This document shows, in pieces, positions 41,831-62,541 of a DNA stretch of 64,000 bases. Under the pieces are notes generated by a model. It searched no databases and was not told the origin of the DNA. It saw only the letters and a program-made list of their open reading frames with translations. The stretch lies in assembly GCA_022823625.1 (NCBI GenBank), contig JAJEHQ010000015.1, positions 62,001 to 126,000 on the forward strand, given 5' to 3'. The position numbers were made by a program, and so were the translations under genes. Positions within the stretch are counted from its first letter, which is position 1. Every line of letters starts with the position of its first letter. The DNA comes from Gammaproteobacteria bacterium (lineage in GTDB: Bacteria; Pseudomonadota; Gammaproteobacteria; Arenicellales; JAJDZL01).

Positions 41831-42601
41831 TTAACTTGAACCACTTTCAAATTTACCTCCCAAATTACCTGCGATTAAAGTACCAAACCTTGGGTCCGAT
41901 AAAGTCAGTCCCGCAAGGCCCATCGCGTGCCACATCGTTACTCCATTAGCGGTAAATACGGGTATACCAGCGCAGCTTTCAAAATCTTTGATTGCAAAGG
42001 TCGATGGCATCGCTGTATCTGGAATCAGCAGAACATCGGCATCAGGGTGGATGGCCCTTGGAATGTGCTTAATGATGAATTCTGGTTGAAACAGCGCGGC
42101 ATCCCAACCGGAAGGTGCATTCAACCAGATCATGTTCAATACCTCAATATCGAATTCATTAAGAAACGACTCAAATGCTCTAGAGGCAGGTTCCGGATAC
42201 GTCGAAAGGACGCTGACCCGGCGAAAACCGCTGTAGCGCAGCGCTTCGATAAATGCCAATGAGGTACTGCCAGACGGTGCACTGACTGTGTCAGTCAGAA
42301 CGCGCAGTTGTTCTTCTGCATGCGCCTTTCCACGAATGAAGCTGCCACTGGTACAAGGCCAGTAAACACAATCCACCTTCAGGGGAATCAGTCGAAGCGC
42401 CGCCTCTACCAGCCAGTCAAGGCGAGAGGTTTGCTCCAGGGCTTCAATATCGTGGTCGTTGTCACCATCTCCGCCGACTCGTGTACAGGTGATAAAGAGC
42501 CGCGCACGATCGCCTGTTTCTTCTAGAAACTGATAGAAATCGTGTTCCGAACCGCCACCCGGCCAAACAAAGCCGATGCGAGCCTGTTGATGATTATTCA
42601 C
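41831..42601 (-). CDS. Asp/Glu racemase-fold protein (maleate isomerase / arylmalonate decarboxylase / EutA-like)
   Basis: 256 residues. The first half has the nucleophile motif WPCTSGS with C83, and the second half has DVLLIPDTAMPS, where the second catalytic Cys of racemases and maleate isomerases would lie; it is Asp195 here. The one-Cys arrangement argues against a classical racemase. Related proteins include EutA of ectoine degradation. It is the last gene of a four-gene operon and overlaps the aminotransferase by 8 bp, so it probably acts in the same pathway. Substrate unknown. Confidence 0.75.
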   Translation of the reverse strand: MNNHQQARIGFVWPGGGSEHDFYQFLEETGDRARLFITCTRVGGDGDNDHDIEALEQTSRLDWLVEAALRLIPLKVDCVYWPCTSGSFIRGKAHAEEQLRVLTDTVSAPSGSTSLAFIEALRYSGFRRVSVLSTYPEPASRAFESFLNEFDIEVLNMIWLNAPSGWDAALFQPEFIIKHIPRAIHPDADVLLIPDTAMPSTFAIKDFESCAGIPVFTANGVTMWHAMGLAGLTLSDPRFGTLIAGNLGGKFESGSS

Positions 42602-43916: not shown

Positions 43917-43918
43917 TC

Positions 43919-45079: not shown

Positions 45080-45087
45080 AGCTCGTC

Positions 45088-46590: not shown

Positions 46591-47017
46591 GGCAAATTAC
46601 GAATGGATGGAATTAGTGCGACTTATCATCCATCCAGTTTACATTGACACGCCTATTCGCTATTGTTGCGGTGCTGACCGGTGAAGGAGTCGTCCAGACT
46701 ATATGATCGGGTGTCGAAATGGCATTCATGACGACTATCAGATGGCATAAAGTCGCAAAAAATTATAAATCTTGAATGATTCTGGTAAGTTTGATAGAAA
46801 GTGAAAAAATCGGTCATCCCTGGAAAGTCAGAGTTCATCAGTTAACGAGATAAAAGCATTTACTGTGCCCACTAAATTAACGTTTTGTCAATACGTTATG
46901 CAAAGACGACAGACTAACTTTGGAGACGCAACACTGACAACCAGACTGACCACTATAATTGCCCGAAACTCCAAATCGGTACCGTTACCAAAATTCGATT
47001 CTACAGTGAGGCGGAAA
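46591..47017. other. Divergent promoter region between the M81 operon and DUF3830 gene
   Basis: 427 bp. The ORF extension of the DUF3830 gene upstream of 47018 (to 46865) does not resemble the family and is treated as non-coding. An inverted repeat TGGATGGA (46604-46611) / TCCATCCA (46629-46636) lies just upstream of the M81 start and could be an operator. TTGACA at 46645-46650 resembles a -35 hexamer. Nothing else was recognised. Confidence 0.4.
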
Positions 47018-47518
47018 ATGAGCGACAGACTGAAATATGTTCGGGTTGGAATGCGGAACAACGGGGCTAGCGTTAAGTTGAAACTGCGCTGGGACAACTC
47101 CCCTGCAACTTGTGAAATCGTCAGCAAAGCCCTTCCGTTCGAGGGTGATATGTGGCATGCAAAGTATGCCAACCATGAAATTTACACGCTTTTGCCAGTC
47201 GAACACGTATTTGGTAAAGACCCGCCTAAAGAATGGATGTGCATGTATCCAGCACCGGGCGACCTGATGTACATCTTTCATCCGGATGGTTTACTGCCAC
47301 CAGAATCCTGGACACCTGAAAGCGATTTTCACATCGTAGATATTGCTCTCTTTTACGACCGTGGCAACAGCCTCTATGGCCCAAGTGGTGGCAATACAGG
47401 TAATATTTTTGCAACTGCGGCAGATATTGAGGAATTGGAAAGATTTGCCGCAGAGTGCATTAATGTCTGGAAATCCGGGTTCTGGGGTGAGCGCATGTAC
47501 CTAGAGGCGGCTGACTAG
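47018..47518 (+). CDS. DUF3830 (cyclophilin-like fold) protein
   Basis: 166 residues from ATG 47018, preceded by GTGAGG; this matches the family length (about 150-165), whereas the longer frame does not. Features typical of DUF3830: KLRWDNSPATCEIVSKALP, HAKYANHEIY and PGDLMYIFH, with GNSLYGPSGGNTGNIFA near the C-terminus. Function is unknown. DUF3830 genes often occur beside racemase-fold and M24 genes in amino-acid or pyrimidine-type catabolic loci, and this one is divergent from such an operon. Confidence 0.75.
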   Translation: MSDRLKYVRVGMRNNGASVKLKLRWDNSPATCEIVSKALPFEGDMWHAKYANHEIYTLLPVEHVFGKDPPKEWMCMYPAPGDLMYIFHPDGLLPPESWTPESDFHIVDIALFYDRGNSLYGPSGGNTGNIFATAADIEELERFAAECINVWKSGFWGERMYLEAAD

Positions 47519-47600: not shown

Positions 47601-48848
47601 TTATGACCAGAGCGCTCCAATTGGCACAGCAAACAGATCGTCTCCAAAAGCAGTACTGTGATCTCCGTCGTACAGCAGGATACCTTTTCGAAATCTTTGT
47701 CCTGCAATATTTCGGAATCGTTTTAGAGAAGAAAAGTCCTGTTTGTGCAGCGTAGCAGACGCCTTGGTTTCAATCGCAAAACATTCACCGAGCGAGTTTT
47801 CGATTATCAGGTCCACTTCAACCTTGTCCTTGTCCCTATAGTGGGAAAAACTTACCCTTTCGCTCAGCCAAACTGCTTGTTTATACAATTCGTTGCACAC
47901 GAAAGATTCCAGAACATTACCAAATTGTCCAGGGTTCAACAACAGGTTATCTGAGTTCAAGTTGCGTATGGCGCAAATCAGTCCGGTGTCAATCAAGTTT
48001 ACCTTCGGAGCTTTTACCAGTCGCTTGTACTCATTACTATGCCACGCCGGAATTCGTTGGACTAGATACAACTGCTCCAGCATTCCTACATACTTTTTGA
48101 CTGTTAGATTGTCTAAATCAAGTCTGTTTCCAAGATCACTGAGATTCAGTAGCTGTCCAGAACAAATAGCAAGAGCTTTCAACAACTTGTTCATTGACTC
48201 AGGATAATCGATGTTTGACATTTCGAGTATGTCGCTCTGAATCATCATATCGACATATTGCCGATACCATGCCTGACGTCGATGTTCGCTAGTGCGCAGC
48301 ACCGGTGCCGGGAAGCAACCGGTTACCAAACGGTCGATGATGTGATCGCGTATTCGAGTGTTGCGAGCTGTGAGCGGCTCAAGATTGAGCAGCCTATTCA
48401 GAAACGTGGGTGTTCTGTTGAGAATTTCGCACTCCGACAGTGCTAAAAGCGGAACAGTTTCCATGCGTCCTGTCAATGCGTCTGACAATTTGGGCAACAG
48501 CAGCGCATTGGCGGAACCCGTCAATAAAAAACGGCCATTTTGCCGTTGCTCATCGACTGTCTGCTTGATTGCCAGAAACAATTCCGGCAGCCTTTGTACC
48601 TCATCAATTATGATGCGTGTAGCGGGAAGGTGGCGAATAAACCCCACGGGATCATTTCTGGCTGTTTCCAGCTGTGCTTGATCGTCTAATGTGAAATAAG
48701 TCCATTCGTTGGTTTTTCCTTTCTCAATCAACTGCTTTGCAATTGTGGTTTTGCCAGCCTGGCGAGGCCCTGCGATAAATACCACCGGTGTATCGCGCAA
48801 AGCTTCTTGAATCATCAATTCAGAATTCCGCGTAAACGCGATAGCCAT
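47601..48848 (-). CDS. AAA+ ATPase with C-terminal DUF4143 (COG1373 type), copy 1
   Basis: 415 residues. N-terminal AAA domain with Walker A GPRQAGKTT (27-35), Walker B IIIDEVQ (D82, E83) and sensor LLTGSAN. A winged-helix segment (about 225-270) and DUF4143 follow, ending in a PD-(D/E)XK-like site: E344, D346, E360, K362 (KVEVDL and FAIETKAS). The molecular function of the family is unknown. Start ATG 48848 has AGGA upstream. The promoter carries four 22-bp-spaced direct repeats. It converges with the DUF3830 gene. Confidence 0.9.
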   Translation of the reverse strand: MAIAFTRNSELMIQEALRDTPVVFIAGPRQAGKTTIAKQLIEKGKTNEWTYFTLDDQAQLETARNDPVGFIRHLPATRIIIDEVQRLPELFLAIKQTVDEQRQNGRFLLTGSANALLLPKLSDALTGRMETVPLLALSECEILNRTPTFLNRLLNLEPLTARNTRIRDHIIDRLVTGCFPAPVLRTSEHRRQAWYRQYVDMMIQSDILEMSNIDYPESMNKLLKALAICSGQLLNLSDLGNRLDLDNLTVKKYVGMLEQLYLVQRIPAWHSNEYKRLVKAPKVNLIDTGLICAIRNLNSDNLLLNPGQFGNVLESFVCNELYKQAVWLSERVSFSHYRDKDKVEVDLIIENSLGECFAIETKASATLHKQDFSSLKRFRNIAGQRFRKGILLYDGDHSTAFGDDLFAVPIGALWS

Positions 48849-48866
48849 ATTTTGTTCCTACAGAAA

Positions 48867-48954
48867 ACCGTCTATATTGGATTATATGAGCGTCTAATTA
48901 TTATTAGGACTGCGTCTATATGTTATCAGAATACCGTCCATTATGCATTCAAAT
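48867..48954 (-). repeat. Four 22-bp-period direct repeats in the promoter of ATPase copy 1
   Basis: The box CGTCTA (CGTCCA in the last copy) begins at 48869, 48891, 48913 and 48935, exactly 22 bp apart. Downstream positions also agree (ATAT after the box in two copies, AT at the 15th-16th unit positions in all four). Read on the minus strand, TATAAT (plus 48881-48886) lies inside the array. Two-turn spacing suggests side-by-side binding of a regulator on one DNA face. Confidence 0.8.
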
Positions 48955-49016
48955 GTAAAATTTTCTTTGTTAAGTCGGCTTTTTCAACACCCGAATTTGT
49001 TTTTCAATGAAACAGC

Positions 49017-50294
49017 TTACCGCGTCCATAACTCAGAAACCGGCACAGCTAGAACTAATCCCTTGGCAAATGAGATGATGTCACTTCCTCTGTAGAACAG
49101 GATGCCTATTTGAAAATCATTACCGCATGCGTTGGCTAGCTTAATCAATCCTTTAGCGTCTCGCGAATTCACGCTCGTCTTGGATTTGATTTCGAATCCC
49201 CAGACTTTTTCCCTTAGAGTCATGACTAGATCGACCTCTACTTGGTCCTTATCCCGATAGTGCCAGAATCGTAAATCTGGGTTAGTCCACCCAGCGTGAG
49301 CAAAAATTTGCTGAACAACGAATGATTCACATAAATGATCCAGGTAAACTCGATTTTCTTCTTCGTTGTACGTAGGAAAATCTGCCAACGTCGCAGCCAA
49401 TCCGCAGTCGATAAAGTGTATTTTGGGGGATTTAGTCAGGCGTTTTGTTCTGTTGGAATTCCAGGCGGGAATCCGACGTACCAAATACACCCGCTCAAGG
49501 TATGCGAGATACCGCTCTAAAGTCAGTCTATGAACAGCGAGTGTTTTGGCCAATTCGCTGATTCTCAATACAGACCCAGTTCGCCAAGCAAGCAGTTCCA
49601 TAATTCGGTACAGCAATTCTGGATCCCTGATTTTGAAGGTTTCAGGAACTACTCTTTCCGCAATATCGCGTAAATAGCTTCTTCTCCACTGTCTTGCCCG
49701 AAGGATGTCGCGATTCAGGGGTTCGGTGTATCCACCAGAGATAATTCTCTCCTCAAACTGCAGATCTGACATGACTGTCAGATCTGTTCTAAATCCCGGT
49801 TGTAGCCAGTCGTTGAGCAAATCAATCAGAAAATTTCCACTTGATCTGGATTTCTCCGATTCTGCCAATGGATGAAGATCGATTATTTCCATTATTCCGG
49901 CGAGGGATTGTGACAAATTTTGGATGAGGTGCAAGTTAACTGAAGCCGTCAAAATAAATCGCCCGGGTCGCCGGTTCTGGTCAACGGAAACTTTAATCGG
50001 ATCGATGAGTTTCGGAACATTTTGAACCTCATCGATAGTGACTGTATCGGGCAAACGCTCTATGTATGAACCAGGATCTTCCGAAGCCATCACAAACTCG
50101 CTATATGTATCCAAATCTACGTAAGGACGACTTGGAAACATATGTTTCACCAATGCAGTTTTGCCAGATTGTCTGGCACCAAGCACACAAACTACGGGTG
50201 TGTTCGATAGTGCGTCACGAATCATCGATTCCACTAAACGTGGGGAAAACTCACTCTCGTTTTTCGTAAATGGCCAAACAGGTGGGAAATTCAT
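49017..50294 (-). CDS. AAA+ ATPase with C-terminal DUF4143, copy 2
   Basis: 425 residues. Walker A GARQSGKTA (39-47), Walker B VTIDEVQ (D88, E89), sensor region FILTASVN. After the winged-helix part the DUF4143 domain carries E353, D355, E368, K370 (QVEVDLV and FEIKSK), again PD-(D/E)XK-like. The first 20 residues (MNFPPVWPFTKNES) are an extra N-terminal extension. It is in tandem with copy 1 (168 bp between) but clearly divergent from it in sequence. The ATG is preceded directly by AAAGG, unusually close for a ribosome-binding site. Confidence 0.9.
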   Translation of the reverse strand: MNFPPVWPFTKNESEFSPRLVESMIRDALSNTPVVCVLGARQSGKTALVKHMFPSRPYVDLDTYSEFVMASEDPGSYIERLPDTVTIDEVQNVPKLIDPIKVSVDQNRRPGRFILTASVNLHLIQNLSQSLAGIMEIIDLHPLAESEKSRSSGNFLIDLLNDWLQPGFRTDLTVMSDLQFEERIISGGYTEPLNRDILRARQWRRSYLRDIAERVVPETFKIRDPELLYRIMELLAWRTGSVLRISELAKTLAVHRLTLERYLAYLERVYLVRRIPAWNSNRTKRLTKSPKIHFIDCGLAATLADFPTYNEEENRVYLDHLCESFVVQQIFAHAGWTNPDLRFWHYRDKDQVEVDLVMTLREKVWGFEIKSKTSVNSRDAKGLIKLANACGNDFQIGILFYRGSDIISFAKGLVLAVPVSELWTR

Positions 50295-50296
50295 CC

Positions 50297-50311
50297 TTTA
50301 TTCAGAATAAA
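50297..50311. promoter_or_regulatory. Inverted repeat abutting the start of ATPase copy 2
   Basis: TTTATTC-A-GAATAAA is a perfect 7-1-7 inverted repeat, 2 bp upstream of the copy 2 start codon, across the translation initiation region. Candidate operator. Confidence 0.4.
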
Positions 50312-50638
50312 TGTGGGGTTGACCGTAAATATTCTTAACACCTAATGTGGTATTCGAACAGAATTTGAATTGATATTAGGATTTCGTCTTTTTTTATATT
50401 AGAGTAAACATTCTCATTCAACTAATATTCTATCTTATTGTTATTTAATTATTATTTAGATAGTTATTACTTCGTACAAATTAGCAGTATTAATTCCATT
50501 GTATTGACCATTTACTTCCAAATTGAGACCATCAGTTTGCCATGTGCTGATGAACGTTCAGAATCAAGCGGATAAAAAAGGTTTTGATGAACTTACCAAG
50601 TTATAGAGCTGGATGAACTGACATGGATTGCTATAAGT

Positions 50639-50667
50639 GTGAAATATCGGAAATCTGTTCCTATAAT
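50639..50667 (+). promoter_or_regulatory. Promoter of ATPase copy 3, possibly leaderless
   Basis: TATAAT at 50662-50667 with GTGAAA at 50639-50644, 17 bp apart (4 of 6 matches to TTGACA). The ATG lies at 50675, 7 bp after the -10 box, about where transcription should start. There is no ribosome-binding site between, so the mRNA may be leaderless. Confidence 0.45.
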
Positions 50668-50674
50668 TCACACT

Positions 50675-51847
50675 ATGTTGGATAGGCTGATTGAAGAAAC
50701 ACTTCTAGAAACGATCGAGCACACACCCGCTGTCGTGCTCGTAGGCGCTCGTCAGGTTGGTAAAACAACACTGGCCAAGAAAATTGCAAAAGATGTTAAA
50801 TCAGTCTATTTGGATTTGGAAAATTCTCGAGACTTGTTTCGCTTGAGTGATCCCTTGTCTTATTTCAATGACAATAGCGACAAGTTAATTATTCTGGATG
50901 AGATTCAGCGAGTACCGGAGATTTTCCCGACACTACGCGGTGTGATCGACAATAACAGATGGGAGGGACGGAAAGGCAAACAGTTTTTGCTTCTCGGTCC
51001 TGCATCCATGCATTTATTGCGCCAGAGCTCGGAAAGCTTAGCGGGACGAATAAGCTATGTCGAATTGAGCGGGTTGAATGTTCTAGAAATCGACCAGCAC
51101 AGAACTGAATTGAACAAGCGTTGGTTGCGAGGAGGATTTCCCGAAAGTTATCTTGCTGAGAACAGTGAACAGAGTATGAATTGGTTGCAAGATTTGGTCG
51201 AAACATACCTTGAGCGCGACATACCAAATCTAGCTTTTCCGATTCCCTCGACAAGGCTACGACGATTGTGGACCATGCTGGCTCACCTGCAAGGTGAACC
51301 GGTCAACTATTCGAAACTTGGTGCGAATTTGGAAATTGATGGCAAAACCGTCAGTCGATATATCGATCTTTTGACTGACCTCCTGCTCGTACGAAGGTTA
51401 ACTCCTTGGCACGAAAATGTAAATAAACGACTAGTGAAATCTCCACGTTACTACGTGCGTGATAGTGGTGTATTGCATTATTTGCTAGGTATCTATGATT
51501 TCGACGCCCTATTGTCACACCCTGTGCTAGGAAAGAGTTGGGAGGGTTTCGTTATTGAAAATATCCACTCGGTCCTTCCCCGTATCGCTAGTACTTACTA
51601 TTACCGAGCAACGACCGGAGCAGAAATTGACTTACTGATCAGATTCGGATTCAACAATATTTGGGCCATCGAGATCAAGTATGGCGTTGCACCGAAAATC
51701 AGCAAGGCATTTGGCCCAACCTGCAATTCTCTAGGTATAAACAGAAAATTTGTCGTTTACGGGGGAGAAGAAGAATTTCCTATTGGTGATGACACGACAA
51801 TGATCTCTCTTCCCAGACTGATGCAAAAGATACAAAATGAGAATTGA
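50675..51847 (+). CDS. AAA+ ATPase with C-terminal DUF4143, copy 3
   Basis: 390 residues from ATG 50675; the family usually begins just before LIEETL-type helices, so the GTG frame start at 50639 (inside the promoter) is rejected. Walker A GARQVGKTT (24-32), Walker B IILDEIQ (D75, E76). The sensor region reads LLLGPAS instead of LLTGSAN. DUF4143 residues E317, D319, E333, K335 (AEIDLLI and AIEIK) are present. Sequence is the most divergent of the four copies. Confidence 0.88.
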   Translation: MLDRLIEETLLETIEHTPAVVLVGARQVGKTTLAKKIAKDVKSVYLDLENSRDLFRLSDPLSYFNDNSDKLIILDEIQRVPEIFPTLRGVIDNNRWEGRKGKQFLLLGPASMHLLRQSSESLAGRISYVELSGLNVLEIDQHRTELNKRWLRGGFPESYLAENSEQSMNWLQDLVETYLERDIPNLAFPIPSTRLRRLWTMLAHLQGEPVNYSKLGANLEIDGKTVSRYIDLLTDLLLVRRLTPWHENVNKRLVKSPRYYVRDSGVLHYLLGIYDFDALLSHPVLGKSWEGFVIENIHSVLPRIASTYYYRATTGAEIDLLIRFGFNNIWAIEIKYGVAPKISKAFGPTCNSLGINRKFVVYGGEEEFPIGDDTTMISLPRLMQKIQNEN

Positions 51848-52217
51848 ATGCCGCTGCTTGCCATATTCTAACGACGAACCTACCCCGATCTGGTAGCGAC
51901 GTGTAAACGATCCACACAGAAATTTCACGTGAAAATGGCTGTATTGACTTCGGCTGGTCTAACTGTATCTCAAACTCCGTTGGACGGTGAATTCACGCTT
52001 CACCAGTTCCGTAATGCAATGGGTACTGCCACTTTTCACCGTTGTTCAAGAATTTTGTAGCGGGTGTTCATTTCTCGCAGAACTGTCAAAAAACCATCTG
52101 TCTGGTCAGACCTGAATCAATCGACAACTGTTCGCAATACAATTGCATCAGATTCAAAAACTCAATATTTTGCATTCGAAAATCGGTATCGGATGGAACC
52201 ACAAGGAGGAACTTATC
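51848..52217 (+). other. 370-bp gap before the solute-binding protein gene
   Basis: Holds a perfect 12-bp palindrome, TTTCACGTGAAA (51923-51934), and a 43-codon open frame (GTG 51929 to TAG 52060) with no recognised homology and no ribosome-binding site, so it is not called as a gene. The promoter of the next gene should be in the second half. AAGGAGGA (52203-52210) is its ribosome-binding site. Confidence 0.4.
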
Positions 52218-53012
52218 ATGAACATGAAGCCTCTTGCTCTAGCCATTGGCACTGTCTTGAGTCTGCTGACACTTGGCAACGAATTAGCATTCGCCGCAGA
52301 TAATCGAATTGACTTAATTCAGGAAAGGGGCGAATTGGTAGTGTGCCACTCCGATTATCCGCCATGGTCTTACAAAGATCGTAAAACAGGGAAATGGATC
52401 GGGGTCTCTGTAGAATCGGCGAAGCACCTAGCCTGGGCCTTAGGCGTTGATTACAAACCCATAGAAGCTGATTTCTATACAAGGGTTTCATTTGTGGAGA
52501 CCGGAAAATGCGACATAACTATGACTCCGATCTATCAAGATGTGAAATATGCGATACGAGTGCTGTTCTCTGACCCTATCAAATATGAATTCCAAAGTGT
52601 GGCAGTCCATATAGATTCACCCCTGCAAACTCACAAAGACGTGGATCAGGAGGGCATCACTGTTGTCGTCGGTCCTAGTTTAGCTGACGAACTTCTTGCC
52701 GAGCGTTTTTACAAGAGAGCGACAGTGAAAAAACTCGAATACCCGAAAGACTTCTCCACTTATTTTCTGGAAGTTTCCTACAGGCGGGCCGATGCTTTGC
52801 TGTATGACAATACGATGATCAGAGACTTCATCAAACAGAATCCAGACATGAATCTCAGAATCATCGATGATGCACCGCTTAGTCCACAGGGTTTCTCTTA
52901 TGTAGTGCCGTTAGGAGAGTATCACTTTATTAACGTCGTAAATATCTTGCTCAAAAAGTTTGAACAGGGGGGATGGAATTACGAGTGGTATCAAAAGTTT
53001 ACCTCAGAGTAA
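52218..53012 (+). CDS. Polar amino-acid ABC transporter substrate-binding protein (orphan)
   Basis: 264 residues from ATG 52218, with a perfect AAGGAGGA upstream; the longer frame from 52143 is rejected. Signal peptide about 1-26 (LAFA before ADN). Family 3 solute-binding domain: GELVVCHSDYPPWSY, SVESAKHLAWALGV, CDITMTPIY. It is clearly paralogous to 57179-57970 but about as diverged as separate specificities. No permease adjoins; it may share the transporter at 58136-60310. The following DddP-like gene is in the same direction. Confidence 0.88.
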   Translation: MNMKPLALAIGTVLSLLTLGNELAFAADNRIDLIQERGELVVCHSDYPPWSYKDRKTGKWIGVSVESAKHLAWALGVDYKPIEADFYTRVSFVETGKCDITMTPIYQDVKYAIRVLFSDPIKYEFQSVAVHIDSPLQTHKDVDQEGITVVVGPSLADELLAERFYKRATVKKLEYPKDFSTYFLEVSYRRADALLYDNTMIRDFIKQNPDMNLRIIDDAPLSPQGFSYVVPLGEYHFINVVNILLKKFEQGGWNYEWYQKFTSE

Positions 53013-53058
53013 TCGTGCGTATATATCGGTTGCTTGAATTCGGCTTGTACTTATTGAA

Positions 53059-54252
53059 TTGTTGAATTCTAGTCAACCAATTGACGAAGTAGCGGTACGT
53101 CAATATCGTTTGGATGCAATACGGTCTCTCGCAGCTGACAACGATCTAGCAGCAGTGTTGCTGTTTGATCCCATCAACATCCGCTATGCAAATGGCTCGC
53201 GATCCATGCAAGTTTGGACAATGCACAATTTCTGCCGCTATGCACTGATACTGACATCGGGTCCATCCGTTATGTTTGAACTACCGACCAGCATGCACTT
53301 GCTCACGGGGCTCGAATCCGTTGAGGAAGTACGACCTGCCTGGTCGACAGATTATCAGTTCACGGGTTATCGGACCGAAGAGATAGTCACTAAATGGGCT
53401 CAGGAGATTGATGATCTGGTCCGCAATTACTGTGGTGATAACCGCCGCTTGGCCGTTGACCGACTGGATGTGCACACTGCCCTTGCACTGATCAAGTGTG
53501 GGTTGGTGCTTGAGGACGGGAAAAGTGTGATGGAGCATGCAAGAGCAATCAAGTCCCTGGAAGAGATTCGTGCTTTCCGGGCATCGCTATCGACCTGCGA
53601 AGCCGCGATGCATGAATTGAGGAACCAGGTTCAACCGGGAATGACGGAACAGGAGGCATTGTCCATTCTGCTGGCGGAGAGCATACGCCGCGGTGGCGAA
53701 TATCCTGAAACGCGCTTGATGACATCAGGACCGCGTACCAACCCGTGGTTTCAGGAAACAAGTAATCGCGTAATCGAAAACGGAGAGTTTCTTTCGTTTG
53801 ACACTGATTTGATTGGTCCGATGGGATTCTATAACGACATATCCCGAAGTTGGATCGTCGGTGATGCTAAGCCGACAGATGAGCAAAGAAGACTGTACGC
53901 CGAATCGAGAGCGCAATTGGAAACCAACATTTCATTGTTGACCCCGGGGTTGTCTTTCTTGGAGTACTCGTCCATGGCTTATCAATTGCCGGAAGAGTAT
54001 CTCGCAAATCGCTACGCCGATGTGGGGCATGGTTGTGGTCTCGGTGTTGAGTATCCTTTTCTTTGGTATCGTGAGGATGAAAAATTTGGTGCCTATGATG
54101 GCGTGTTTGAGGAAAACATGGTGGTATGCATAGAAAGTTATGTCGGTGAAATAAACGGCCGAGAAGGGGTAAAACTGGAGCAACCGGTATGGATCAGCGC
54201 CAATGGACCCGTTGTGCTGTCGGACTTTCCGCTTGAGGATGATCTGAGCTGA
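53059..54252 (+). CDS. DddP-like M24 family protein lacking the catalytic Asp
   Basis: 397 residues from TTG 53059 (no ATG near). The protein aligns with DMSP lyase DddP with, as far as I can align from memory, a constant offset of 47: ETRLMTSGPRTNPWFQE, FDTDLIGPMGFYNDISRSW, GHGCGLGVEYP. Metal ligands D248, D250, D260, H324, E359 and E374 correspond to DddP D295, D297, D307, H371, E406 and E421. The base D377 of DddP corresponds to V330, so classical DMSP cleavage is unlikely. Pairing with a solute-binding protein points to uptake and hydrolysis of a related small compound. Confidence 0.8.
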   Translation: MLNSSQPIDEVAVRQYRLDAIRSLAADNDLAAVLLFDPINIRYANGSRSMQVWTMHNFCRYALILTSGPSVMFELPTSMHLLTGLESVEEVRPAWSTDYQFTGYRTEEIVTKWAQEIDDLVRNYCGDNRRLAVDRLDVHTALALIKCGLVLEDGKSVMEHARAIKSLEEIRAFRASLSTCEAAMHELRNQVQPGMTEQEALSILLAESIRRGGEYPETRLMTSGPRTNPWFQETSNRVIENGEFLSFDTDLIGPMGFYNDISRSWIVGDAKPTDEQRRLYAESRAQLETNISLLTPGLSFLEYSSMAYQLPEEYLANRYADVGHGCGLGVEYPFLWYREDEKFGAYDGVFEENMVVCIESYVGEINGREGVKLEQPVWISANGPVVLSDFPLEDDLS

Positions 54253-54256
54253 AACT

Positions 54257-54273
54257 GTATCTTGAGGAGATAC
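54257..54273 (+). terminator. Small hairpin after the DddP-like gene
   Basis: GTATCT (54257-54262) and AGATAC (54268-54273) form a perfect 6-bp stem with a 5-nt loop right after the stop codon. No U-tract follows; weak evidence for termination. Confidence 0.3.
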
Positions 54274-54415
54274 GGAAACCAACCAGCCACGTCCCCAATG
54301 ACGGGATTAGTTTAATCAACTACCTCAACGGACATATGCTCGCCTCAAAATGCTGAATTTAGGTTCCGTACTGATTCGACAACACCATATCTAAGTTGAA
54401 ATTAACTGTTAATTA

Positions 54416-54474
54416 TTTTGTAAATATAAATTCTTATTTTATGATTTAATAAACTAACTTTTATATTTACAAAA
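54416..54474. repeat. Perfect 15-bp inverted repeat upstream of ATPase copy 4
   Basis: TTTTGTAAATATAAA (54416-54430) and TTTATATTTACAAAA (54460-54474) are exact reverse complements separated by 29 AT-rich bases. The right arm ends 17 bp before the ATG of copy 4. It could be a dual operator or a cruciform, or the ends of a tiny non-autonomous element. Confidence 0.75.
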
Positions 54475-54491
54475 CCATGTGATTTAAATCG

Positions 54492-55736
54492 ATGATTGAG
54501 CGACAGCTCAAAGAAAGGATTTTGGAAGCACTAAATACGTTTCCAGTTATCTTCATTAACGGTCCAAGACAGGCGGGTAAAACCACACTTGTCCAACATC
54601 TGGCAAAAACTGAATGTCCTGCGGACTACGTTAGCTTCGATGATTTCAACTTTTTTCACGCCGCGGAAACAAATCCTCAAAGTTTCTTGCGAGCATTCAA
54701 GGGTCGATTGATTATTGATGAAGTCCAGTTAGTACCGAGTGTTTTTCGTGTGATAAAGATGCTCGTAGATGAAACTCGACAAATGGATCATGTCAATGCT
54801 AATGGTCGATATCTTCTAACCGGCTCAGCAAATGTCATGACTTTTCCTGAACTCTCAGATGCACTAGTCGGTCGCATGTGCACCTTTCCGCTATTCCCGC
54901 TGTCTGCACTCGAAATTTCCAAAGGTCGAGGTGAGTTTTTGGAACGGCTATTCAATAACGAGTTTCAATTTGGAACAAGAAAACAAGACATTGGGATAAC
55001 CGAAATGATTCGACAAGCAACATTTCCTGAAATTACCAATTTGGATGATGACAGTCGAAAGGAGTGGTTTAGTGCATTCTCAACCGCCATACTACAACGC
55101 GAAGTCAAGCAAGTTGCAGCAATATCCAAAGCCAGAGTTCTTCCAAATCTACTCAGCGTATTGGCATCGCGTGCCGGGGGGTTGATCAATGAAGCAGATA
55201 TCGCGAGAACAATCAAGGAAAATTCAGTTACTACAAAAAGTTATCGCATTCTCCTGCAGATGATTTTTCTCACATTTGATATCCAGCCATGGATTCGAAA
55301 CATCGACAAACGTTTGGTCAAATCGCCCAAGGGTTATATTTTGGACACATCGTTATTGTGCTACATTCGACAGATTGACCTGTCTTACGCTGAAAAATTC
55401 CATCCAGATTTATTTGGGTACCTGTTTGAAAATTTTGTCGCATCTGAACTTCTCAAACAAGCCACGATATCAAAACTGAGAGCGCAACTCTACCACTTCC
55501 GAACTAGTGACAACAAAGAGGTTGACTTCGTGCTGGAAACACCTGACGGTAAACTAGTTGGTGTCGAAACCAAAAGCCGAGATTCAGTAACAGCAGCTGA
55601 TTTCAAAGGACTTAAAGTTCTTCAACACCAAGTAAAAAATGACTTCATCTGTGGCATCGTGCTCTACTGTGGACAACACGTGATTCCATTTGGGGACAGG
55701 CTTTGGGCAATTCCCGTTTCCGAAATGTGGGCATGA
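54492..55736 (+). CDS. AAA+ ATPase with C-terminal DUF4143, copy 4
   Basis: 414 residues. Walker A GPRQAGKTT (24-32), Walker B LIIDEVQ (D76, E77), sensor LLTGSAN. DUF4143 carries E343, D345, E359, K361 (KEVDFV and GVETKS). It is most like copy 1 in its N-terminal motifs but differs through the middle. Start ATG 54492 without a clear ribosome-binding site. It converges with the aminotransferase at 55809. The upstream region has the 15-bp inverted repeat. Confidence 0.9.
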   Translation: MIERQLKERILEALNTFPVIFINGPRQAGKTTLVQHLAKTECPADYVSFDDFNFFHAAETNPQSFLRAFKGRLIIDEVQLVPSVFRVIKMLVDETRQMDHVNANGRYLLTGSANVMTFPELSDALVGRMCTFPLFPLSALEISKGRGEFLERLFNNEFQFGTRKQDIGITEMIRQATFPEITNLDDDSRKEWFSAFSTAILQREVKQVAAISKARVLPNLLSVLASRAGGLINEADIARTIKENSVTTKSYRILLQMIFLTFDIQPWIRNIDKRLVKSPKGYILDTSLLCYIRQIDLSYAEKFHPDLFGYLFENFVASELLKQATISKLRAQLYHFRTSDNKEVDFVLETPDGKLVGVETKSRDSVTAADFKGLKVLQHQVKNDFICGIVLYCGQHVIPFGDRLWAIPVSEMWA

Positions 55737-55808: not shown

Positions 55809-57125
55809 TCAATTCAGCTGTTCTAATACTCTTTCAGTAATTTCCAGCGTTTCGTCAATATCAGCCTGTGTGTGCGCGAAAGAAATGCTGCCCTGCTTCG
55901 TCGTGACCGGAAAGTGAAAGACACCCTTCTCGATTAACGCCTTTCGATATCGTACGTCTCGTTCAGCATCGTTGTGTCGAGCAATATCCGACCAACAGAT
56001 TGGTTCGTGGTCCATGAAGTAAACAACGAATGCCGAACCGACGCGCACAATTGTGGTCGGATAGTCCTGTTTTGCAAACAGAGCCCGAAGCCCGGATTCC
56101 ATTTGCTCGCCTAAACGTTCCAGGTGAGTATAGATTTCCTCGCCACGTTCTTTGAGTTTACGTACGGTAGCAGTAGCGGCCGCCACAACGAACGGATGTG
56201 CGTTGTAGGTACCAGCAATCAAAACTCGTCTGGCGGTATCCGGATGGCAGCAATACGCCATGTATTTAGCCTTTCCACCTACGACACCTAACGGATAGCC
56301 ATTTGCGGCAGCCTTACCGAAAACACTGAGATCTGGAGCTATTTGACAGATCGATTGATAACCACCCAAAGCATGTCGAAAGCCTGTTTTCACTTCGTCA
56401 AACACAAGTATAGTGCCGTGTTCGGTGCAAAGCTGTCTTAAGAATTCCAAGTAACCCGGCTGTGGTTTTACGATTCCGATATTCTGCAGAACGGGCTCAA
56501 CGATGACAGCTGCAATTTGTCCGGTTTCCACCAATGACTGCATTGCTTCACGGTCGTTGAACTCGACGGCATGAGCCCCTTGCGGTGTTGATGCATGCAT
56601 TCCAGCGGAAATTGGTCTTAAGGAGTGCTCTTCACCGCCGCGATGGCTGTTAAAAGTCGAGGCCGGGTCCATTAAATTGAATGCCACGGAGTCCATCCAA
56701 CCGTTGTAGCCACCTTGAATGAATACAACATCGTTGCGGCCCGTGGCTGCTCGGGCCAGTCGAATCGAGAATGCAACGGCTTCGGTACCGCTGTTGGTTA
56801 ACTGCACCTGCTCAAGATAGGGTACCGATTCGACCAGTAGATCGGCAATTTCGTGCTCCCACGGGGTGGTCCCAGCGCCCATTAACGATTCACTACGGCG
56901 AATTGATGCAATAACAGCTTCATCGACGTCTTTATCTCCATGCCCTAACAGGTACGGTGCAAATGCTGCGTGATAATCGATATAGCGTTTACCGGTTTCA
57001 TCCCACATATAGGCTCCCGATGCGCGCACGAATACGCGCATCGGGTCTATCAGACGATTAAGCGACATGACGCCGCCGGCAATGGATCCGGTTTCTACGG
57101 AACGACTGTGCGCCGGACTATTCAT
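55809..57125 (-). CDS. Class III aminotransferase, glutamate-1-semialdehyde aminomutase-like (2)
   Basis: 438 residues; HAAFAPYLLGHGD, NSGTEAVAFSIRLARAAT, GGYNGWMD, VFDEVKTGFRHALGG and the PLP lysine in FGKAAANGYP. Last gene of the operon DMFase-like - permease - permease - ATPase - binding protein - aminotransferase, 53 bp after the binding protein. It probably removes an amino group from the product of the transported compound. About as diverged from the gene at 42594 as from other family members. Confidence 0.85.
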   Translation of the reverse strand: MNSPAHSRSVETGSIAGGVMSLNRLIDPMRVFVRASGAYMWDETGKRYIDYHAAFAPYLLGHGDKDVDEAVIASIRRSESLMGAGTTPWEHEIADLLVESVPYLEQVQLTNSGTEAVAFSIRLARAATGRNDVVFIQGGYNGWMDSVAFNLMDPASTFNSHRGGEEHSLRPISAGMHASTPQGAHAVEFNDREAMQSLVETGQIAAVIVEPVLQNIGIVKPQPGYLEFLRQLCTEHGTILVFDEVKTGFRHALGGYQSICQIAPDLSVFGKAAANGYPLGVVGGKAKYMAYCCHPDTARRVLIAGTYNAHPFVVAAATATVRKLKERGEEIYTHLERLGEQMESGLRALFAKQDYPTTIVRVGSAFVVYFMDHEPICWSDIARHNDAERDVRYRKALIEKGVFHFPVTTKQGSISFAHTQADIDETLEITERVLEQLN

Positions 57126-57178: not shown

Positions 57179-57970
57179 TTATTCGGCCGTGACCATCTCG
57201 TACCATTTGTCTTTCAGTCCCTGCTGCTCGATCGTTTCAAGCCAGACATTGATGAAATTTACAAAGTGATACTGCCCTGGTAGCACCGCGTATGCATAGC
57301 CCTGGGGATTAAGTGGCGCATCATCAACAATTCGCAGATTCATACCTGGATTCTGTTTGATGAAGTTTCTAAGCGAAGAACTGTCAGTCAACACAGCATC
57401 GGCTCTTTTGCTGGCCACCTCAAGAAAGTAAGTGGACAGTTTGTCACTGACGAGTGGCTTGACCTCTGCCATCTTGAAAAATCGCATGGCGAAAGCTTCA
57501 TCTGCTGTACCTGATCCAACGGCAATGATCATGCCTTCCTTATCAAGGTCTTTGTGAGACTGTGCGTCAGAGTCCATGTGGACTGCTGTGCCTTGAGTTT
57601 CGTATCCAGAGGGGTTCGAAAACAGCACGCGCATGGCACGTTCTGCGGTTCGGAACATTGGAGACATCACGATGTCGCACTTGCCTGTTTCCAGACTCGG
57701 AATCAGTGTGCCCCACTGGGAGTCGACCGGTACATATTCGACGCCCATAATGCCAGCAAGATGCCTTGCTGCTTCAATATCAGTGCCAACCCACTCACCG
57801 GTTTTTGGGTCTTTGGCACCCCAGGGCAGTGCTTCTGCATGGCAAACCAGAAGTTCGCCGCGGTCCTTGATGACCGAAATCTGATCATCTGCACTGAACG
57901 CTGAACCGATACCCAGACTGAATAAACTAAGAATGACACCAAGTTTGATGGCGATTTTTTTCATACTCAT
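57179..57970 (-). CDS. Polar amino-acid ABC transporter substrate-binding protein
   Basis: 263 residues, signal peptide about 1-25 (SAFS before ADD). Family 3 binding domain: GELLVCHAEALPWGA, DIEAARHLAGIMGVEY, CDIVMSPMF. Start ATG 57970 with GGAG upstream; a second ATG is two codons on. Belongs to the transporter encoded upstream (58136-60310). Paralog of 52218-53012. Confidence 0.92.
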   Translation of the reverse strand: MSMKKIAIKLGVILSLFSLGIGSAFSADDQISVIKDRGELLVCHAEALPWGAKDPKTGEWVGTDIEAARHLAGIMGVEYVPVDSQWGTLIPSLETGKCDIVMSPMFRTAERAMRVLFSNPSGYETQGTAVHMDSDAQSHKDLDKEGMIIAVGSGTADEAFAMRFFKMAEVKPLVSDKLSTYFLEVASKRADAVLTDSSSLRNFIKQNPGMNLRIVDDAPLNPQGYAYAVLPGQYHFVNFINVWLETIEQQGLKDKWYEMVTAE

Positions 57971-58135
57971 ATTTACTTACTCCATTTAATATGATTAAAC
58001 TGTTTTTTGCTCCATGTGCATTAAACTGCAAGTTGAATTGTAATCTGTTCGCTGTTTATTGCAACAGAGTAAACAAATAAAGCGACAGGTGAAACTATCG
58101 TTACCGATCGCAAGTGAATTGAAATCCTGCGAAAC

Positions 58136-58888
58136 CTACAAAATATTAGACAAAAATTTCGCCAATTCAGGGTTTGCGCTGCTGTCAAAAAAACCGTCTG
58201 TCGTTTCATCTACCAGAAATTTACCGCCGGCCATAAAGAGCATCCGACTCGCGGCTTCTCTGGCAAAGCCCATCTCATGTGTAACAATAAGCATTGTCAT
58301 ACCGGAGAAGGCCAACTCCTTCATGACATCCAATACCTCTACTACCATCTCGGGGTCGAGAGAAGAAGTTGGTTCATCAAACAGCATCGCCTGGGGTTTC
58401 ATGGCCAGTGCTCTGGCAATCGCGACTCTTTGCTTTTGCCCACCGGACAAGTGATTCGGAAATTTTTCGATCTGCTCAACGATACCAACGCGCTGCAGTA
58501 GATTTTCAGCTAGTTCATTTGCTTCATGCTGGTCCATGCCACGTGAAACCCTAGGGGCGAATGTAACGTTTTCGCGTATCGACATATGTTCAAACAGGTT
58601 GAACTGCTGAAAAACCATACCGACTTCCCGCCGAACACTTTCAGTTTCCTGCCGGCTTCCAGGTAAACGAATGTCATTCACAACAATTTCCCCGGCTTCG
58701 ATTGATTCCAGAGCATTTAACACCCGCAGAAAGGTAGATTTACCGCCGCCGGATGGACCAACAATGCACACAATCTCTCCCTTGCTAATTTCGATGGAGA
58801 CGTCATCCAGCGCTTTGAATGTACCAAAATATTTTGAGACGTTGCGGCAGGAGAAAAACGATTTGGCTTTGTGTCCTATAGCTTGCAT
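58136..58888 (-). CDS. Polar amino-acid ABC transporter ATP-binding protein
   Basis: 250 residues; Walker A GPSGGGKST, signature LSGGQKQRVAIARA, Walker B MLFDEPTSSLDPE, switch His in IVTHEMGFAREA. Typical GlnQ/ArtP-type PAAT ATPase. 13 bp after the permease gene at 58902, and 165 bp before the binding protein gene, which may have its own promoter or a processing site. Confidence 0.95.
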   Translation of the reverse strand: MQAIGHKAKSFFSCRNVSKYFGTFKALDDVSIEISKGEIVCIVGPSGGGKSTFLRVLNALESIEAGEIVVNDIRLPGSRQETESVRREVGMVFQQFNLFEHMSIRENVTFAPRVSRGMDQHEANELAENLLQRVGIVEQIEKFPNHLSGGQKQRVAIARALAMKPQAMLFDEPTSSLDPEMVVEVLDVMKELAFSGMTMLIVTHEMGFAREAASRMLFMAGGKFLVDETTDGFFDSSANPELAKFLSNIL

Positions 58889-58901
58889 GAAACGGGCCCG
58901 A

Positions 58902-59567
58902 TTAGTGTCCGGTTTTCTCCAGAAGTTTTTTCTCAGAGCGTCGAGCCAACAGACTGAACGGAAAGATCAGCACAAAGTAAAGAACAGCAATGGCGGTTAA
59001 AAACTCAAAGTAGCTCAATGTCTGAGCACCCAGAATGCTCGCCGTGTATGCCATCTCTCCCACAGCGATGGCCGACAGCAGGCTGGTGGCTTTAAGCAAC
59101 TCAGTCAGAAAGTTGACGAAAGCCGGCATCATTCGACGAATTGCCGGAGGAATGATGATCTTTCTCCAAATGTGAAATCTTGGAATTGCCAGTGCATATG
59201 CGGCATCAACCTGTCCCTTGGGCACCGCCAGAACACCTGCGCGAAAAATCTCTGCAAGGTAGGCTGCACTGAAGAGTGACAGTGCAATAATGCCACAGGC
59301 TTCACTTGAAATCCGGATGGATAGCAGCAGTGGAAGACAGGAATAGACCCAAAAAATCAGCACTACTTCGGGAATAGTTCTGAAGAAGTCAATAAATCCG
59401 TTTGACAGTCTGAACGCCAGTCCGCGCTGCTGAAGCTTTCCCAAACAGGCAAACATACCAATAACAATTCCGATGACGAGCGAAACTGCTGAAATCCAGA
59501 TGGTAACTCCAAAAGCCTGCAGCAAATCTGGGCCGTAGCGGATTAACTGGTCCCACTCAAATCTCAT
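58902..59567 (-). CDS. Polar amino-acid ABC transporter permease (2)
   Basis: 221 residues with five hydrophobic segments and the EAA-type coupling motif FRAGVLAVPKGQVDAAYALA typical of HisMQ-family permeases. Overlaps the preceding permease gene by one base. Partners the permease at 59567-60310. Confidence 0.93.
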   Translation of the reverse strand: MRFEWDQLIRYGPDLLQAFGVTIWISAVSLVIGIVIGMFACLGKLQQRGLAFRLSNGFIDFFRTIPEVVLIFWVYSCLPLLLSIRISSEACGIIALSLFSAAYLAEIFRAGVLAVPKGQVDAAYALAIPRFHIWRKIIIPPAIRRMMPAFVNFLTELLKATSLLSAIAVGEMAYTASILGAQTLSYFEFLTAIAVLYFVLIFPFSLLARRSEKKLLEKTGH

Positions 59568-60310
59568 TAGCGTTCCCTTTTCTGCAGAAAATATTCAATT
59601 CGCAAAGTGCCTTTGCTCATTAGAATACCGACGACAAAATAAAGCACGGCAATGAAACTGAACAGCTCTACTGGCTTGAACGTCACATTACTGATTCTGT
59701 TTGTTACGGTCATCAACTCGCTCACGTGCAAAGTTGAAAGAATTGCGGTTCCCTTGAAGAAACTGATTGTGAGATTGACCAATGGCGGAATCATCGTGCG
59801 GATGGCTGGTGGCAGAATGATTCGGGTCCAACGTATCCAGGAAGGCAGTGCGAGCGAGTAAGCAGCCTCCCACTGTCCTTTGGGGACCGAGTCAATGCCT
59901 GCGCGGACGATTTCCGTAAAGTACGCAGCGGCTTGCAGCGTAATGCCAATCACACCGCTTTCCAAGGCAGTGGTGTTGATTCCGGTGACCAGTGGCAATG
60001 CGAAGTGTATCCAGATCAACTGGACCAGAAGCGGAGTATTCCGCCAGATTTCGACAAATGCGATGACAATCCAGCGAAGTGGTGCGATGTTGGATTGACA
60101 GGCAATAGCGAGTACGGTTCCGCTCAAAAGCCCGGCGACCGCTGCGCAAGCTGTCAGGGCCAGAGTAACCAACATCCCCTTCAGCAGAACCTGGCGATAT
60201 TCCCAGACCACGGAAAAGTCAAGGGAGAGCAGTAAATTCCAATTCAGAAAGTAGGCAAGAGTACCTAATGCGAGCAGGAGAACGACTGGAAACGAATACT
60301 TAGCGATCAT
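59567..60310 (-). CDS. Polar amino-acid ABC transporter permease (1)
   Basis: 247 residues, five to six hydrophobic segments, coupling motif VRAGIDSVPKGQWEAAYSLA. It follows the DMFase-like gene by 32 bp, so hydrolase and transporter are probably co-transcribed. Start ATG 60310. Confidence 0.93.
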   Translation of the reverse strand: MIAKYSFPVVLLLALGTLAYFLNWNLLLSLDFSVVWEYRQVLLKGMLVTLALTACAAVAGLLSGTVLAIACQSNIAPLRWIVIAFVEIWRNTPLLVQLIWIHFALPLVTGINTTALESGVIGITLQAAAYFTEIVRAGIDSVPKGQWEAAYSLALPSWIRWTRIILPPAIRTMIPPLVNLTISFFKGTAILSTLHVSELMTVTNRISNVTFKPVELFSFIAVLYFVVGILMSKGTLRIEYFLQKRER

Positions 60311-60342: not shown

Positions 60343-62541
60343 CTACTCGACCAAGAATCGTTCAAGAACGTTTTGTGTCAGTTTCGATATGTTGTTGTTG
60401 AATCCGTTCCAAGGCAGGCTACCGCAGTAAGTGATGGAGCCTACCGAAAACACATACCCGTTTTGAGGGGTTTGAAAAATAGTCATATCAGCCCGAATCA
60501 GTTTTTCTTCCGGGTCCCCCGTACGGGTTGCCAGGTGCGAAAGAATTTCTTCTGGCACCAAGATAAAGTGATCTGGGTAAGTCTCTGAACTTGCGAGGAC
60601 AACCGCATTGAGTGGGGTTCCAAGACCAAAGTCGACACGATCGAGTTCAAATCCAGCTGCACCGCCTCCGCTCAGTCCAAAATCTCCCAGAATATCATCG
60701 TCGATGCCTTCAAAGACCCATTCATATTCTGCAGGCACGTTGGGATTTTTCCGATAGTACATACCTTCAAAATCACCCTGAGCGCTAAATCCAACACCAG
60801 CCAGCTGTTGAGGTGGGCGACCGTTTCTGAGCCACATACCCCCATATTCTCCATCCAATGCGTTGTAGTATTCACCAGCTTCTGCTGCCCAGGTTCGAAT
60901 TCCACCTTCGGCTCTTCGAATTTCAATAATCCCGGGTAGGTCTTCACGGATCCCGATTTTCCAGTAGAATCCGTTTCCACCCATGTACATCAACCTTCCA
61001 CCTGTTCTGCTGTATTCATAAATTGCATCCAGGGTGTTGCCGGTGTGATACTCTGGATGGCTCATGGTCATTACAACACGATACGGACTTAGAATTTCAA
61101 TACCCTCCTCGTGAATGTCCTCATCGGAAATCACATCGTAGTCGTGCCCCAAGTGTTCAAGCCAGGCAAGCAAATGGGTATCTGCGGGTAAATGTCGCAT
61201 GCCCGATACGGCGTAGGGTCGAAAGATTGTCATATACCGTGGCCGCATGGTTAACGATGGTCTCAACCTGGAAGACAGGCAGATTCCACTGCCATCAGTG
61301 TGCGAGTTGTATGTGGAAAGTCCAAACTCGCGTACGATGTCTGGTGTCCAACGTCGGTTGCCCATTTTTTTGACCAGAGCATCGTAATCAGGCCCGGCCG
61401 TTCCACGTGCCTGATTGTTGTAGACGGTATAAGTAAAGGTCGGAATAATGACACAGATCTTGGATTGTGGTTTGCCAGTCTTGGGTCGCACATAAAAAGG
61501 AATGTCTTCAAATTCACCCTGGCACTCGATTCTCATTGAATACATAGCACTTCTGAAGTCATTAGGAACCTGGAATTCAAAGTCGGTTTCCCACTCGCAG
61601 TCGTAAATGTCATCTTCGTGGAAGTGGATGGCACCGTAATCCTCTGGTGCATGCTTCCAGGCCATCTCCTTTCCACTCCAGGTTGAGCCTCGCATCGCGC
61701 GGGTTGGAACATTGACCAATTCCCCATGCATGCGGAGCGGGCCAATGTCCTTGATGGACTGAGTACTGATGCCGAGTGAAAAGTCCCATTGCGCAATCGT
61801 ATTTTCAGCGTCAGTCCTAGAGGTGACCGAAGTGTCTCTTCTATATAGGGAATCGTGGGAATACACACAATTCATGATGCCCGGCAGTTCGATCTTTCCG
61901 TTGTAGTGGTTCGCTTTGACTTCGCTGCCTGATGATGCAATATAAATTTCCTGCACTTCAGCCAGTGAAGGTGACTGGTCAAATTGAGAGTCCTTGAAAG
62001 CGGGGGACAGATCATCGTTTCGCGGTCCACATGGAGACTGTCCAATAACAATTTTGTTGGTTTTGTAATTGACTGAGCAGCAGACGGTGTACCAAATTCG
62101 TTCATGCAAAACTTCGCTGAGGCGAAGTTCAGCGCCCGATTTGAGACAGGCTCCCAGATGACCTGAATCAAGGAATAGTTCAAGCAATTTTTCACCGGAA
62201 CTATCATTCAGACAAATGATTGACTGTCTGCCTGCATTAGGTAGTGTTGGCCAGATATTAGCTACAACCGAGAAATGGTCCTGGTGTGTTAATTTGCCTT
62301 CCACCTCTACCCGAGCATAGGACCCGAGTTTGATGGGCTGCTTCCGCGACGGAAATTGACCGGAATAGATTGAGCTTAAATCCTCTTCAATAATGCCGGG
62401 TCCAATCGGATTGGGGTCTGCGCAAGTGATTCGAACAAGTCTGACGGAATAGGGTTCGTCGAGTTCGCTGCTGACTTTGAATTGAATGGTCTGATTGTGA
62501 CCGAGACACCATCGGTCCGCATAACCTGATATTGGAATCAA
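60343..62541 (-). CDS. N,N-dimethylformamidase large-subunit-like amidohydrolase
   Basis: 732 residues from TTG 62541, preceded by GGAG; the first line (IPISGYADRW) matches the family opening. It has a lectin-like middle region (laminin-G-type beta fold, about 90-230) and the C-terminal catalytic domain (about 360-730) with RLRPSLTMRPRYM, MSHPEYHTG and GGRLMYMGGNGFYW. Characterised DMFase has a mononuclear iron site with two Tyr and one Glu and needs a small subunit; no candidate small-subunit gene is seen here. First gene of a six-gene operon with a transporter, so the likely substrate is imported. Actual substrate unknown. Confidence 0.8.
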   Translation of the reverse strand: MIPISGYADRWCLGHNQTIQFKVSSELDEPYSVRLVRITCADPNPIGPGIIEEDLSSIYSGQFPSRKQPIKLGSYARVEVEGKLTHQDHFSVVANIWPTLPNAGRQSIICLNDSSGEKLLELFLDSGHLGACLKSGAELRLSEVLHERIWYTVCCSVNYKTNKIVIGQSPCGPRNDDLSPAFKDSQFDQSPSLAEVQEIYIASSGSEVKANHYNGKIELPGIMNCVYSHDSLYRRDTSVTSRTDAENTIAQWDFSLGISTQSIKDIGPLRMHGELVNVPTRAMRGSTWSGKEMAWKHAPEDYGAIHFHEDDIYDCEWETDFEFQVPNDFRSAMYSMRIECQGEFEDIPFYVRPKTGKPQSKICVIIPTFTYTVYNNQARGTAGPDYDALVKKMGNRRWTPDIVREFGLSTYNSHTDGSGICLSSRLRPSLTMRPRYMTIFRPYAVSGMRHLPADTHLLAWLEHLGHDYDVISDEDIHEEGIEILSPYRVVMTMSHPEYHTGNTLDAIYEYSRTGGRLMYMGGNGFYWKIGIREDLPGIIEIRRAEGGIRTWAAEAGEYYNALDGEYGGMWLRNGRPPQQLAGVGFSAQGDFEGMYYRKNPNVPAEYEWVFEGIDDDILGDFGLSGGGAAGFELDRVDFGLGTPLNAVVLASSETYPDHFILVPEEILSHLATRTGDPEEKLIRADMTIFQTPQNGYVFSVGSITYCGSLPWNGFNNNISKLTQNVLERFLVE

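Follow-up and report, generated by a model that had tools for sequence, protein, structure and literature searches.

The question raised by this locus is which reaction would be catalysed by a protein that has the fold and the metal site of the DMSP lyase DddP and carries Val at the position of the Asp proposed as the catalytic base. The protein is encoded within the window, which is the whole stretch of 64,000 nucleotides that was analysed. Its reading frame is open over the coordinates first described. The features of the gene and its surroundings are listed in the table. The protein belongs to the M24 family by the Pfam search, where PF00557 (Peptidase_M24) scored 101 bits against a gathering score of 23 and PF01321 (Creatinase_N) matched weakly. 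The gene is under purifying selection, with a dN/dS of 0.10 against L006 and 0.07 against L007. Synonymous sites are saturated against L008-L011. The promoter and terminator scans around the gene gave nothing beyond chance.

Table. Coordinates of the M24 gene, its diagnostic codons and the surrounding features in the window.
Feature	Position	Strand	Remarks
M81 protein	7422-8903		further M81 protein
Second catabolic cluster	41831-47518		includes another M24 protein
AAA_14/DUF4143 ATPase gene	47601-48848	-	flanks the M24 gene (set spans 47601-55736)
AAA_14/DUF4143 ATPase gene	49017-50294	-	same set
AAA_14/DUF4143 ATPase gene	50639-51847	+	same set
Family 3 amino-acid-type solute-binding protein, possible operon partner	52143..53012	+	ends 46 bp before the M24 ORF, same strand
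DddP-type M24 metalloenzyme of the Val clade	53059..54252	+	397 aa plus stop; TTG start (unproven); stop-to-stop frame 404 aa; coding part without stop 53059-54249
Codons 46-48, Gly-Ser-Arg	53194..53202	+	Gly46 at DddP Asp88, Arg48 at Ser/Thr90 (alignment columns)
Codon GAT, Asp321	54019..54021	+	acid near-fixed in the Val clade (37/38), 0/35 in the Asp clade (alignment columns)
Codon CAT, His324	54028..54030	+	metal ligand, DddP His371 (alignments)
Codon GTT, Val330	54046..54048	+	column of DddP Asp377 (alignments)
AAA_14/DUF4143 ATPase gene	54492-55736	+	same set
Glutamate-1-semialdehyde-type class III aminotransferase	55809..57125	-	relatives near the Val-clade gene in 3/41 loci (L007, L011, L026)
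Polar amino-acid-type ABC transporter (second family 3 solute-binding protein, ATPase, two permeases)	57179..60310	-
Dimethylformamidase beta-like protein	60343-62541	-	DMFA2_C, 308 bits; beside the ABC transporter

By sequence, the solved proteins closest to the window protein are RdDddP and RlDddP, at E about 1e-73, ahead of prolidases at about 1e-15. The AlphaFold2 model of the window protein was built on 45 family members and has a mean pLDDT of 91.5. The model best matches the DddP entries (Z 46.4-46.6), followed by Xaa-Pro dipeptidase (prolidase) at Z 35.4, and its overall fold superposes on DddP with Z 46.6 and an rmsd of 2.1 over 395 residues. The window protein shares with DddP (RdDddP 4b28; RlDddP 4rzy, 4s00 and 4s01; NCBI model NF043017) the six metal ligands, Tyr366, Trp95, Glu378 and the SGPRTNPWF-E stretch, and is 36% identical to RlDddP in the family alignment. 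Its differences from DddP, given as window protein/DddP, include Val/Asp377, Gly/Asp88, Arg/Thr90, Tyr/Trp262, Asp/Cys368 and Pro/Gln423. It also lacks the N-terminal stretch of DddP (about 1-50 of the profile), since only from position 53 onwards does it match the 443-position profile. All 31 survey matches above the NCBI cut-off begin at profile positions 1-8.

The six metal ligands had been matched to DddP in the preliminary description, and this match is confirmed by the alignment with the solved RdDddP and RlDddP (4b28, 4rzy) and by the family MAFFT alignment: D248, D250, D260, H324, E359 and E374 correspond to DddP D295, D297, D307, H371, E406 and E421. The constant offset of 47 residues assumed for that match is valid for the C-terminal catalytic domain but not for the N-terminal domain, where the offset is 42 and W53 corresponds to Trp95. 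The substrate-tunnel pair, which that description did not mention, is retained, with Y319 at Tyr366 and W53 at Trp95. According to the RdDddP paper, Asp297, the equivalent of Asp250 here, is not common to methionine aminopeptidases, and Asp377 is invariant in known DddPs and is the preferred base, with Tyr366 considered as an alternative (PMC4108388). A review states that an Asp abstracts the proton and that a Trp and a Tyr bind the sulfur of DMSP (PMC5395565); we infer that these two are Trp95 and Tyr366. Both alignments place Val330 at the Asp377 column, as had been proposed. The wording that the catalytic Asp was replaced is accepted for the residue but not for the history, because replacement implies loss from a DddP ancestor, a direction that is not established, and M24 peptidases have His at that column.

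The Val is a property of a whole clade. The genome scan gave 54 loci, which were aligned by MAFFT with the window protein, the paralog from its own genome and the two solved DddPs. Val occupies the 377 column in 41/41 rows of the group of the window protein that reach the column, and Asp occupies it in all 15 other rows (13 loci and the two solved DddPs); five further rows are fragments that stop short of it. Val is thus fixed in the clade, and it reflects no sequencing error or accidental substitution. The first tree contained 78 family rows and two distant M24 outgroups. A single branch set off each of the Val (38 rows), Asp (35 rows) and Gly (5 rows) groups, with SH-aLRT values of 99, 81 and only 35, respectively. 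The larger tree (110 rows, from more genomes) again gave Val as one clade (SH-aLRT 96), with three changes needed for Asp and two for Gly, and the tree built with both motif stretches removed gave the Val clade a value of 100. These trees are quick ones made without bootstraps, and their root is unsure because the outgroups are distant and have long branches. The members of the Val clade come from Gammaproteobacteria, Alphaproteobacteria and one Binatota MAG. The window protein is placed in this clade, outside the clade of the solved and curated DddPs. On these trees, the Val clade is taken to be a separate, old branch of the DddP-type fold, and Asp, Val and Gly are read as alternative states of the 377 column within that fold.

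Other fixed or near-fixed columns differ between the Asp type and the Val type together with the 377 column. In DddP numbering these are 88 (Asp to Gly), 90 (Ser/Thr to Arg), 255 (Asn to Ser), 262 (Trp to Tyr), 305 (Cys to Tyr), 368 (various to Asp), 373 (Val to Cys), 377 (Asp to Val) and 423 (Gln to Pro). The corresponding residues of the window protein include Gly46, Arg48, Tyr215, Tyr258, Asp321 and Pro376. Asp88 and Asp377 occur together in all 35 Asp-type rows of the first set. A strict pairing of the two was considered and dropped, since Gly stands at 88 in 3 of the 59 distinct Asp377 survey matches (L132, L195 and L163).

The Asp-type proteins of plasmids of Rhizobium, Caballeronia and Pseudomonas, together with the paralog L002 (C14:87662-88834 of the same genome), belong to the same DddP-type fold family by sequence, are about 40-49% identical to the window protein and have all ligands. 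Unlike the window protein, they keep Asp88 and Asp377, and their genes often lie beside Rieske, MTTB (trimethylamine methyltransferase family) or glycine-betaine transport genes. L002 is 45% identical to the window protein and scores 424 bits with the DddP profile, below the cut-off. The contig of L002 also encodes an AcuI-type reductase, which scores above its own cut-off, at a distance of about 50 kb. The Gly-type members (L105 of Sinorhizobium meliloti pSymA, L081, L126 and L171-L187) resemble the Val clade in Gly88, Arg90 and Tyr305 and differ from it in Gly377, Tyr or Phe at 95, the lack of Asp368 and Gln or Glu at 423. The neighbours of L105 are MTTB, isochorismatase, glycine-betaine transport and mandelate-racemase-family genes. 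One divergent member, L188 (G428:C1:169793-170944), has Trp at Tyr366 and Gly at the metal ligand Glu406. The plasmid records searched for cultured relatives gave 182 matches, all below 60% identity, and the 40 matches listed were all below 49%. The Val type was absent from L099-L108, the plasmid relatives in which the 377 column was read.

The preliminary description had warned that automated annotation as a DMSP lyase would mislead. This applies to metagenome surveys with loose limits (E 1e-30 to 1e-50) but not to NCBI naming, where the window protein scores 329.5 bits (E 3e-98) with NF043017 against a cut-off of 600 bits and the plasmid relatives of this fold are named 'Xaa-Pro peptidase family protein'. 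The published thresholds are an HMM E of 1e-30 (Table 3 of PMC8520302), E 1e-30 combined with an identity of 40% or more to ratified proteins (PMC9327192) and E 1e-50 followed by a tree (PMC7494906). The window protein satisfies all of these E values; with 36% identity to RlDddP it would fail the 40% rule, and tree curation might also remove it. Two genome samples were surveyed, one of 369 gammaproteobacterial genomes and one of 398 genomes from across the phylum; they partly overlap and include the genome of the window. In them, 34 and 58 proteins, respectively, matched the NCBI model at E 1e-30 or better. They represent 90 distinct matches, one of which is short of the 377 column. The remaining 89 carry Asp (59), Gly (25), His (3) or Val (2), so that 30/89 are without Asp377; Asp377 is present in 31/31 matches above the NCBI cut-off. 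The two Val matches are the window protein and L194 from another gammaproteobacterial genome, so Val is rare in this sample and the Gly type is the larger part. According to a sediment survey, dddP was present in 37.8% of bacteria on average and was prominent in Pseudomonas and Mesorhizobium, and sequences closer to other functions were also removed (PMC7039863). By the features tested, the window protein is judged to be no DddP and to represent a new subfamily of a known fold.

The solute-binding protein encoded directly upstream has cyclohexadienyl dehydratase-type and amino-acid binding proteins as its nearest solved relatives. Its pairing with the M24 gene was seen only in this organism and a near-identical relative, two contigs of which (L006 and L007) keep parts of the neighbour set. 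The relatives at 70-80% identity have other neighbours, except for the aminotransferase in L011. No gene family common to the whole Val clade was seen near the 41 Val-type loci. One gammaproteobacterial group has genes of a TauD-type dioxygenase, MmgE/PrpD, RidA, a TrkA-domain channel and an ArsP-type permease nearby, and TauD relatives are found near 9/41 Val-type loci. The neighbours at single loci are a Rieske oxygenase nearest to carnitine monooxygenase (L011), MTTB (L035 and L036), an FAD oxidoreductase (L014), serine dehydratase (L039), glutamine synthetase (L023) and sugar-dehydrogenase-type genes (L038). Some of the listed neighbours are antisense artefacts because gene calling was crude (longest open frames). 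The relatives of the aminotransferase and of the dimethylformamidase-like protein on plasmids indicated no telling pathway.

The genes of Rieske, MTTB or dimethylglycine-dehydrogenase type lie near 14/21 Asp-type loci versus 4/41 Val-type loci, a contrast that is indicative only, since the Asp-type set includes hand-picked plasmid records, the stretches are of unequal length and most query genes were taken from Asp- and Gly-type loci. This contrast in betaine-demethylation neighbours suggests a different role for the Val type. The Asp-type contexts surveyed were those of Rhizobium, Pseudomonas, Caballeronia and Terrarubrum, and the dddP of Loktanella lies beside a Rieske gene, which raises the question of whether some Asp-type members, too, might act on nitrogen betaines.

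Other observations concern the wider surroundings. The M24 gene is flanked by the four AAA_14/DUF4143 ATPase genes listed in the table, and 27 DUF4143 matches occur in its genome, including at least two pieces of one gene, an unusual expansion. The second catabolic cluster encodes an arylmalonate-decarboxylase-like protein, a class III aminotransferase and an M81/MlrC-like protein, with a DUF3830 protein on the other strand; its M24 protein is without the usual metal ligands (GYPVGIGFPPTW motif).

The preliminary description had also allowed for a different substrate, and a non-DMSP substrate or reaction is indeed the better reading of the sequences, in which the Val clade is monophyletic and carries linked changes. 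In M24 chemistry, a metal-bridging hydroxide with Glu as the base hydrolyses C-N bonds. The proteins of the Val clade, a separate and old branch of the DddP-type M24 fold, would be working binuclear-metal enzymes in which the metal-bridging hydroxide would attack the substrate with the retained Glu359 as the M24-type base. The substrate would be a small carboxylate compound, brought in by the neighbouring amino-acid-type transporter and cleaved at an amide or another C-N bond, and Arg48 would suit a second acidic group, not a sulfonium. In the absence of the Asp base, the window protein would not cleave DMSP by the DddP route. We give about an even chance to this reading of a metal-hydroxide hydrolase that acts on an imported small compound resembling an amino acid, where hydrolysis is read from the intact metal site alone. 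The transport and aminotransferase genes nearby fit this reading; the narrow occurrence of the pairing with the solute-binding protein counts against it. The ectoine hydrolase DoeA/EutD and creatinase also hydrolyse C-N bonds of small solutes with the M24 fold. These enzymes are not known to need metals, unlike the window protein, which keeps its metal ligands, and their structures match the model with Z about 33 and 16-19% identity.

The retained Trp95 and Tyr366 are a point against the hydrolase, since the pair is described as holding the sulfur of DMSP and would suit an onium substrate. The window protein might then be an onium lyase that uses another base (Tyr319 or Asp321) on DMSP, DMSOP or a nitrogen analogue such as betaine, a reading that we regard as rather unlikely. 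It is favoured by the retention of this pair and all six ligands, and by Asp321, an acidic residue that the clade has gained close to the site in the sequence. Lyase activity in the absence of Asp377 is conceivable because Tyr366 is named as an alternative base in PMC4108388. Quaternary-amine genes are found beside a few Val-type loci (L011, L035 and L036), and the genome of the window (3.18 Mb) has 11 MTTB matches, all outside the window, versus none in 13/14 control genomes, so that the host looks like a methylated-amine consumer. One of the eleven contains an internal TAA. Against an onium lyase, Asp377 is universal among the matches above the NCBI cut-off, Asp88 is lost together with it, the Arg gained two residues after position 88 would be unfavourable to a cation should that loop line the site, and betaine-type neighbours are found at only 4/41 Val-type loci.

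An Xaa-Pro or other small M24 peptidase is an improbable reading. The M24B Xaa-Pro peptidases (prolidase, aminopeptidase P) share with the window protein the pita-bread fold and the common metal ligands, and the annotation of the relatives points in the same direction. However, both substrate-binding histidines of these enzymes are absent. When the paralog L002 is aligned with prolidase 1pv9 by HMMER, Asp377 falls on the prolidase His itself (HGVGL-a-DEyP against HGVGLEiHEWP), and in 3/3 peptidase-like weak survey matches His stands at the 377 column with the same one-residue loop difference. The idea that Val330 is the ancestral M24 hydrophobic residue that precedes the catalytic His was dropped on this alignment, where one loop residue is missing, and the three survey matches agree. 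The other M24 His, which we take from the aminopeptidase P motif to be at position 278, is occupied by Phe231, and Phe is found there in 38/38 Val-type rows. The window protein is thus without either peptidase histidine and without the lyase Asp, so peptide hydrolysis, named earlier among the activities to compare, is not specially favoured. The extra Asp250 ligand and a fold of the DddP type rather than the peptidase type also argue against a peptidase. Identity to the non-DddP structure rows is low (13-25%). According to the review, the histidine pair became Asp and Phe in DddP, and RlDddP had no measurable activity on Val-Pro (PMC5395565).

A loss of catalysis, with the protein serving in binding or regulation or being a decaying copy, is very improbable: the residue favoured as the base is absent, but the six ligands are kept across the clade, the dN/dS values are low and Val is fixed across two proteobacterial classes and the Binatota MAG.

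With the metal-hydroxide hydrolase as the preferred reading, this gene probably serves another reaction and is better left out of counts of dimethyl-sulfide producers. No paper on the Val or Gly form was found in the incompletely covered literature, which is weak evidence of absence. At a little short of even confidence, we propose that the DddP-type fold hosts at least three chemistries that are sorted by one column (Asp, Val and Gly, with His in peptidases), that the Val clade would be a new activity in Gammaproteobacteria and Alphaproteobacteria, and that a sizeable part of the 'dddP' recovered by broad searches (30 of 89, mostly Gly, some His and rarely Val) would be no DMSP lyase. Asp377 together with Asp88 would provide a simple test for re-scoring published dddP counts. 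The Val clade would offer a natural experiment in which one fold switches between hydrolysis and elimination.
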